From Fimbriimonadaceae bacterium (GTDB taxonomy: Bacteria; Armatimonadota; Fimbriimonadia; Fimbriimonadales; Fimbriimonadaceae), in the NCBI GenBank assembly GCA_025934835.1, contig JAICWL010000025.1, positions 1 through 37,862 of the forward strand: DNA of 37,862 bases, written 5' to 3'. A program made the position numbers and the translations under genes. The notes beneath the pieces were generated by a model that was not told the DNA's origin, did not search any database, and saw only the letters and a list, made by a program, of their open reading frames with translations. Below, piece after piece: positions 35,926 to 37,599 of this stretch (positions within the stretch are counted from its first letter, which is position 1; every line of letters starts with the position of its first letter).

Positions 35926-37599
35926 ATGTCGAGCACGAGCCCCCACAAACCGAGGGAAGCCGACCCAACGCCGCGCCTAACACTGTGTCTGGCGATGGAC
36001 CTCATGGGCTCGACTACTTCGGGGCTCAAGCTCAGCACGCGCAAGCTCGATCGCTTCAATTTGGCGCTCGTGAACCAGCTACGGCCGCATCTGAGCGCTA
36101 TGCAGCTCGAGCACGCGGTCGTAAAATTTACGGGCGACGGCTGGCTGGTGATGTCGGACGATCAGGAGCATGCCGCTCCACTTTGCTGCCTGGCGATCAT
36201 CATGGCTAAGCAGTTTCAGGCCGAAGTCGCAAGCGACGCGGGACTGCCAAAAAACGCCGTGCCGACGATGCGATTGGCCCTATGCTGGGGTCGCGATCTG
36301 CCCGTTACTCTGCCCGACGGCCAACGGGATTTCGTTGGCAACTCGGTGCGCCGCGCGGTGCGGGCGAGCCAGCTTTGCAAGGAGAATGAAATTCTCATCG
36401 ACGAAACCGTGCGCACGTGGGTAGCGCACGACTTTCGCACGGCGGCCGTCGACGTCGTCGAGCGGGTCGAGCTCTTCAAGCCTCAAAAGATGGAGGAAGA
36501 GCTCGTGCTGCATGTGCTGGTAGAGCTAAAAACGGAGTCGGCCACCGATGCGGACGCGCCGATTTGCTTCGTTAGCGCGCTATCGATCATTGGCCGCGGG
36601 ACCGAGGCGGACGACCTCGCCGGCAGAATCTCGGATCAGCTCGTTCAGGAGACGGCCAGCCACCGTTCCGGCGAGGCCGCGCTGCTCTCCAAATGGAACG
36701 ACCTGCTCGCGGCGAACCTGGATTACAGCACCGCACGATCCATGCTAGCCAGGCTCGTCGATGCCGGCCTGACGCCGGACGTGAACACGTACAACGCTCT
36801 GATCGGCAAGGCGCAGGACTACCGCGACCAGAGCAAGTGGCTGCAGCAGATGATTCAGGAGGGTATCCGCCCGAACGTTGTGACTCTGAATACGCTGCTC
36901 CGCCAAGCCAAAGACGCGGGCCAAGCTCAGCGGCGACTTCAGAAGATGGCCTCCGAGAAGGTCGAACCAAACCCGGAGACGATGGAGATATTGGTCGAGA
37001 AAGCCCCGGATTTCGATACTGCTCTGGCTTGGATGGAGCGCATGGACGCTGGGTGCGTCGAGCCAACCGCCCGCGTATACGAGACGCTGATCGAAAAGGC
37101 CGAAGATTTCAAAAGCGCCCGGGCTCTGATCGAGCGAATGTTCGACAGGGACATTCAGCCCTCGGAGACAGCGTTCATTTCGCTTTTCTCGAAGGATATC
37201 TCGGGAGTTCCGGCGGGTGATCTTCTCGCCTGGTATCTGGGGCTTCGCTACCATCCAACGCATCCTGTGAAGAGAGCCATCGCCGAATACCGGCGCAAGG
37301 GGATGATCGAGGATGCGCTGCGCCTGGCGCTCGATTATCCTCACACCGACACGGCGCTGCGTCTCATTCGCAAGTTCGCCGACCGCGCGCTGGCTTATTT
37401 CAGGTCGGTTGTGGAGCGCGACCCGGACCACCCGAACGGCGCTTACGCGCTCGGCATGGCGTTGCTGGAAACGGGAGATTCCGGCGAGGCGGAGAGATGG
37501 CTGCGGCGAGCCTACGCTCTTGCCACACCCGGCACCCGCAAGGACGAACTTGCCCGATTCCTCAGCCTGCTGGAACGCGTAAACCCTCCATCGGCATAA
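35926..37599 (+). CDS. Class III cyclase-like domain fused to PPR-type repeats and a TPR-like tail
   Basis: The 557-residue cytosolic protein has a GGAG ribosome-binding site five bases before the ATG. Residues about 18-195 resemble a class III nucleotide cyclase domain: AMDLMGST and KFTGDGW carry the two metal-binding aspartates (D25, D71). However, the position usually Asn in the VNxAAR motif is Arg (VRRAVR, residues 141-146), so catalysis is uncertain. Residues 266-425 are five consecutive repeats of exactly 32 residues, each with a Pro-Asn/Asp/Thr/Ser junction and a TYNALIGKA-like helix, as in pentatricopeptide repeats but three residues shorter than the usual 35. A TPR-like unit (ALAYFRSVVERDPDHPNGAYALG) lies near the C-terminus. 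PPR proteins usually bind RNA; that role here is inference. Confidence 0.85.
   Translation: MSSTSPHKPREADPTPRLTLCLAMDLMGSTTSGLKLSTRKLDRFNLALVNQLRPHLSAMQLEHAVVKFTGDGWLVMSDDQEHAAPLCCLAIIMAKQFQAEVASDAGLPKNAVPTMRLALCWGRDLPVTLPDGQRDFVGNSVRRAVRASQLCKENEILIDETVRTWVAHDFRTAAVDVVERVELFKPQKMEEELVLHVLVELKTESATDADAPICFVSALSIIGRGTEADDLAGRISDQLVQETASHRSGEAALLSKWNDLLAANLDYSTARSMLARLVDAGLTPDVNTYNALIGKAQDYRDQSKWLQQMIQEGIRPNVVTLNTLLRQAKDAGQAQRRLQKMASEKVEPNPETMEILVEKAPDFDTALAWMERMDAGCVEPTARVYETLIEKAEDFKSARALIERMFDRDIQPSETAFISLFSKDISGVPAGDLLAWYLGLRYHPTHPVKRAIAEYRRKGMIEDALRLALDYPHTDTALRLIRKFADRALAYFRSVVERDPDHPNGAYALGMALLETGDSGEAERWLRRAYALATPGTRKDELARFLSLLERVNPPSA

Follow-up and report, generated by a model that had tools for sequence, protein, structure and literature searches.

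A class III nucleotide cyclase-like domain joined to 32-residue pentatricopeptide repeats in a scattered family of bacterial and archaeal proteins

Pentatricopeptide repeat (PPR) proteins are regarded as essentially eukaryotic, and they have been described as not typical of prokaryotes (PMC4029402). The stretch of DNA analysed here (the window, 37,862 nucleotides) makes up all of one contig (C174) in the 3.3 Mb draft genome of a Fimbriimonadaceae bacterium, and an earlier note made from its letters had proposed that one of its genes fuses PPR-like repeats to a nucleotide-cyclase-like domain. The locus raises the question of whether both domains are what they seem, whether the repeats read RNA, and how the two parts might act together. 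A compact cyclase-PPR protein from bacteria or archaea would allow a direct test of the PPR code outside eukaryotes, would have a bearing on the origins of PPRs, and would offer a ready RNA-to-second-messenger switch.

A reading-frame check indicated that the gene is complete and encodes 557 amino acids. It is present in a single copy in the host genome and ends 263 bases before the end of the window. Its third-position GC (0.75) is the same as that of its housekeeping neighbours, which include an aconitase gene and an endonuclease/exonuclease-type gene (names assigned by eye). The parts of the gene are as follows.

35926..37599, + strand: complete gene for the cyclase-PPR-TPR protein, 557 aa (open reading frame, orthologues, third-position GC)
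35971..36531, + strand: class III nucleotide cyclase-like domain, residues 16-202 (profile of relatives and model)
35998..36000, + strand: D25, first metal-binding Asp (invariant in 15/15 members)
36124..36138, + strand: K67-F-T-G-D71, substrate Lys and second metal-binding Asp (K67 and D71 invariant in 15/15)
36328..36363, + strand: D135 (adenine-type specificity position), R142 (site of the canonical Asn) and R146 (transition-state Arg) (alignment; invariant in 15/15)
36532..36684, + strand: helical linker from cyclase to repeats, residues 203-253
36685..36780, + strand: PPR unit 1 (254-285), code N/D, predicted U
36781..36876, + strand: PPR unit 2 (286-317), code N/N, predicted U or C
36877..36972, + strand: PPR unit 3 (318-349), code N/N, predicted U or C
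36973..37068, + strand: PPR unit 4 (350-381), E/T, without canonical code
37069..37164, + strand: PPR unit 5 (382-413), E/S, without canonical code
37165..37365, + strand: conserved C-terminal cap, residues 414-480, with LFSKD, WYL.L..HP and LDYP motifs (orthologue identity)
37375..37527, + strand: TPR tail, residues about 484-534 (TPR_19 above cut-off)

The same layout is kept in full-length orthologues that are 61, 54 and 52% identical to the window's protein, which argues that the arrangement is not a product of chance. Conservation among orthologues is highest in the cyclase domain (0.61), and the C-terminal cap has a mean pairwise identity of 0.54, against 0.36-0.50 for the PPR units. We consider the assignment of cyclase, PPR and TPR to one protein practically certain.

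Searches with Pfam profiles matched the repeat region to PPR_2 with 51.2 bits (E 1.3e-13, cut-off 30) and to PPR_3 with 46.8 bits (cut-off 25), while the TPR matches were confined to residues 483-534 and none lay over the repeats. When the protein was compared with solved structures by phmmer, designer PPR proteins ranked first (E 9e-42). A position matrix placed five contiguous 32-residue units at residues 254-413 (nucleotides 36685-37164), and the same spacing held throughout the arrays of cyclase-PPR relatives; on shuffled proteins the matrix found no 32-residue units. Five back-to-back units of this length had been proposed earlier, and their number and length are confirmed; the register given then (residues 266-425, nucleotides 36721-37200) was 12 residues too late. 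The AlphaFold2 model of the full protein, built on a ten-sequence alignment, had a mean pLDDT of 88.2 and a pTM of 0.74, and the part after the cyclase domain, folded alone, gave a continuous alpha-solenoid (pLDDT 90.5, pTM 0.80). The top Foldseek matches of this solenoid were designed PPRs, with PPR10 also among the matches (Z 14-18). Its local match to cPPR-NRE (4pjr) was close, with an rmsd of 3.1 A over 170 columns; over long range, the rmsd to PPR structures was large, presumably owing to a different superhelical pitch. The earlier note had named a TPR profile scoring above PPR, or a structure other than an alpha-solenoid, as outcomes that would count against PPR repeats. Both were looked for, and the PPR profile scored far above TPR and the fold matched PPR structures. 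A TPR identity of the 32-residue units is thus ruled out by profile and fold. The TPR-like tail that had been suspected behind the repeats is present, with TPR_19 matching residues 486-529 at 30.5 bits against a cut-off of 25.

The array shares its Pfam match, its alpha-solenoid fold and the codes N/S/T and D/N at residues 5 and last with plant P-class proteins (PPR10 and the designer dPPR and cPPR proteins). However, the P-class unit has 35 residues, whereas the spacing in the cyclase-PPR arrays is exactly 32, and the proteins described here are prokaryotic and fused to a cyclase. In an alignment with the 35-residue designer unit, the 32-residue unit has about three residues fewer near the end of the first helix. 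The S motifs of plant PLS proteins (31 aa) set an example of a shortened unit that still follows the code (PMC11094755); they alternate with P and L motifs, whereas the arrays here consist entirely of one 32-residue type.

The N-terminal domain of the window's protein matched no Pfam cyclase family, even up to an E value of 1. Nevertheless, a profile built from the N-terminal domains of 12 relatives retrieved nothing but nucleotide cyclases up to E 1, in ten distinct PDB sequences; they were class III cyclases only, with a best E value of 0.003 and a weak match to the uridylate cyclase 8jsz (E 0.13). The model of residues 14-202 superimposed on class III guanylate and adenylyl cyclases with a Z score of 20.4 and an rmsd of 2.5 over 174 residues (6sir). 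The class III cyclase-like domain claimed from the letters was therefore borne out by the relatives' profile and by the model fold. Five of the six catalytic residues (D25, K67, D71, D135 and R146) are invariant in all 15 members from bacteria and archaea, including both metal-binding Asp residues that had been read earlier, D25 and D71; K67 lies four residues before D71. The sixth position, that of the transition-state Asn, holds an Arg (R142) in 15/15 members. The D/N/R of the rhodopsin-cyclase catalytic core align with D135/R142/R146, and D135 aligns with an Asp of 6aoa, an E497/C566D mutant of guanylyl cyclase. A Lys/Asp specificity pair is of the adenylyl type. Given this pair and the conserved residues, the domain is expected to be an active, ATP-using enzyme with an unusual site; the replacement of Asn by R142 and the absent Pfam match may mean that catalysis is altered or lost. 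With bacterial class III cyclases such as CyaB, Rv1625c and Cya2 and with rhodopsin-guanylyl cyclases, the domain shares its fold (Z about 20) and all but one of the six catalytic residues; the Arg in place of Asn, a sequence beyond the reach of Pfam and the attached PPR array set it apart. AtPPR-AC of Arabidopsis is a PPR protein reportedly possessing adenylyl cyclase activity, a claim that is said to rest on a short motif rather than on a class III domain.

The search of genomes for cyclase-PPR fusions that the earlier note had proposed found members in bacteria and archaea. A contig scan with a single-sequence query yielded 0 loci, and one with an alignment query yielded 13, the closest named ones being from Armatimonadetes, Chthonomonas and Fimbriimonadia assemblies. 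A cyclase domain with PPR units occurs in 9 of 291 Armatimonadota genomes, and a tenth (G522) carries the C-terminal part only, at a contig end; the fusion is absent from all 19 other genomes of the window's own genus. Archaeal members were found in Candidatus Argoarchaeum, a Methanophagales assembly and a third archaeal genome, and further bacterial members in a Brocadiaceae assembly (Planctomycetota), the cultured strain Portibacter marinus and another Bacteroidota assembly. An Acetothermia assembly holds a broken copy (L024, G120:C73), in which stop codons and a masked stretch disrupt the reading frame. Searches for copies carried by phages or viruses found none. In the cyclase tree, two distant Armatimonadota members group with the archaeal and Brocadiaceae ones, apart from the window's group, with moderate support (81/88 and 90/82), and this placement suggests horizontal transfer of cyclase-PPR genes. 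Cyclase-PPR is a real, rare and scattered family.

We found no report of a cyclase-PPR fusion in openly licensed literature, in keeping with the earlier judgement that the pairing is unusual, nor did we find there any cyclase controlled by a sequence-reading RNA-binding array. PPR repeats themselves are known from bacterial proteins of Ralstonia, Rhodobacter and Legionella longbeachae, with twelve such proteins from two species by 2010 and two more in L. longbeachae (PMC2824747). These are few proteins from few species, and PMC2824747 reports neither a cyclase fusion nor code-following 32-residue arrays. In addition, one Avs5 protein carries PPR (PMC12931631). The family is thus a new combination of known domains and, judged from sequence, speaks for prokaryotic PPR arrays that follow the code.

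Whether the units read RNA can be judged against the PPR code. Residues 5 and last choose the base, with ND reading U, NS C, SN A and TD G, and with NN reading U or C, TN A and SD G (PMC4837458). We counted changes in arrays of near-identical units from six relatives. Positions 5 and 32 hold 22 of 79 changes against 4.9 expected (0 of 100,000 permutations) and rank at the top of all 496 position pairs; with the richest array left out they hold 12 of 51 against 3.2 expected (34 of 200,000 permutations, or 0.6% when the same two positions were drawn for every array), these permutation figures being guides rather than strict probabilities because the units within an array are not independent, having arisen by duplication. 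The variation in relatives is limited to N/S/T at position 5 and N/D at position 32, and 56 of 67 T/S3-type units use ND, NN, SN, SD, TD or TN, all of which have an RNA reading (PMC4837458). In the Portibacter protein (L023), the 11 units carry the codes SD, ND, SN and NN and differ mainly at positions 4-5 (Tyr-Ser versus Phe-Asn) and 32 (Asn versus Asp), the other codons being almost constant. By prediction this array can address all four bases, with the target YGUYAYUGAYG, for example CGUCACUGACG, which makes the question of the code testable in one binding experiment.

The window's own copy is less telling. Its units 1-5 carry ND, NN, NN, E/T and E/S, canonical in three of five. All seven close orthologues have Asn5 in units 1 and 2, and most have it in unit 3; unit 5 has a canonical pair in none of them. 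Units 1-3 may read a short pyrimidine stretch, while units 4-5, the cap and the TPR tail may serve structure or protein contact; a predicted stretch of three bases would confer little specificity. In relatives, the variation at the code positions supports RNA rather than protein as the ligand; in the window's copy, with three of five units coded, the support is weak.

From the fold and family of both domains, the conserved catalytic residues, the fixed 32-residue units and the code-position variation in relatives, all shown here, we infer RNA binding, catalysis, the product and, by pure inference, the coupling of RNA binding to catalysis. The best reading of the whole chain, to which we give slightly less than an even chance, is a nucleotide cyclase of the cytoplasm that responds to RNA. 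Together with the cap and the TPR tail, the PPR array would bind a short single-stranded RNA in the plant fashion, residues 5 and last of each unit reading one base. As the RNA binds or leaves, the class III cyclase domain would dimerise or align differently and make a cyclic nucleotide, most likely cAMP in view of the Lys/Asp pair, and unlinked cNMP-binding proteins would read the signal; the host genome encodes seven cNMP-binding domains. RNA is thus probably the input and the nucleotide the output, opposite to the nucleotide-regulated scaffold that was first suggested. In that earlier version, the cyclase domain has lost catalysis and acts as a nucleotide sensor that governs whether the repeats bind RNA, and the Arg for Asn in all members and the absent Pfam cyclase match agree with it. 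However, every member, from archaea to several bacterial phyla, has the metal Asp pair, the Lys, the Asp and the transition-state Arg, and a domain that only sensed a nucleotide would have little use for two metal sites and that Arg. With these residues conserved, an enzyme under the control of whatever the repeats bind is the likelier reading, and we regard the nucleotide sensor as improbable and less likely than the reverse direction.

The ligand might also be a protein. PPR and TPR together would then form one peptide-binding scaffold whose partner controls the cyclase, as in TPR-linked class III cyclases. The C-terminal part is indeed TPR, units 4-5 of the window's protein carry E/T and E/S, and the Avs5 literature treats the PPR of a bacterial STAND protein as ligand-binding (PMC12931631). 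We nevertheless judge this rather unlikely, as positions 5 and 32 of the relatives vary only within N/S/T and N/D, a pattern that marks base reading and for which protein binding offers no evident explanation. A further reading is an antiviral alarm of the Pycsar or CBASS kind, with phage RNA as the ligand of the array and an alarm nucleotide as the product of the cyclase. In its favour are the patchy spread over distant phyla and archaea, the related 32-residue arrays on NTPase-type proteins (L011, L051) and one related array next to a DUF3644 gene, with type-I-restriction-like genes nearby. Pycsar pyrimidine cyclases share the class III fold and the weak profile match to 8jsz, whereas the present domain has the adenylyl-type Lys/Asp pair and not the PycC specificity residues (PMC11224242). 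PADLOC has no family for the window's protein up to E 1, the flanks that were read show neither an effector nor a conserved neighbour, the window's surroundings are housekeeping, and the five-unit array is constant in six Armatimonadota orthologues. The surroundings do not favour a defence system, the patchy spread keeps one possible, and overall we hold the alarm to be quite unlikely. Beyond the RNA-responsive cyclase itself, it is conceivable, if doubtful, that the family belongs to a natural re-programmable RNA sensor of prokaryotes, in which plant-code 32-residue arrays, also found on NTPase-type proteins, would grow and shrink by whole units, be retuned at positions 5 and 32 and report through a cyclic nucleotide, with the cyclase form having spread between bacteria and archaea.

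In the flanks that were read, the members have no neighbours in common, save related archaea with common synteny, so that a conserved operon partner was discarded; likewise, no adjacent cyclic-pyrimidine effector gene is common to them, the window itself stopping shortly after the gene. A multi-pass membrane protein gene (L077, 3096-5137, G522:C377) lies on the same strand 39 bases after a cyclase-PPR gene. A membrane-protein partner (L020 upstream, L077 downstream) was considered and set aside, its Pfam matches being uninformative and no counterpart being present in the part of the loci that the comparison covered. A PPR gene on a Rahnella plasmid (pMEM40-2, CP036489.1, L076) was also rejected as bacterial, for its backbone of catA1, repE, sopA and a resolvase is BAC/fosmid-like; the record is probably a clone of eukaryotic DNA that was deposited as a plasmid.

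Other PPR genes were seen along the way. L011 (64-2334, G032:C223), the second 32-residue PPR protein of an orthologue-bearing genome, has a P-loop NTPase (AAA_16, just below the Pfam cut-off) followed by several units, and thereby resembles a STAND-type receptor whose sensor is made of PPR units. L051 (538-2619, G274:C29), from Bacteroidota, has an NTPase-looking N-terminus (by eye only), then six near-identical units and degenerate ones with the codes TN, SN, TD and ND and a predicted target of UUAAGGUUY. At L089 (5079-7091, G253:C41; the PPR gene also appears as L052), a small stand-alone 32-residue PPR protein adjoins a DUF3644 gene whose product may have a HEPN-type R....H motif (by eye), with type-I-restriction-like genes close by, possibly an RNA-sensing nuclease pair. 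Finally, an Armatimonadota reading frame of about 1,500 codons (L064, G639:C203) encodes many PPR units with apparently ordinary 35-residue spacing.
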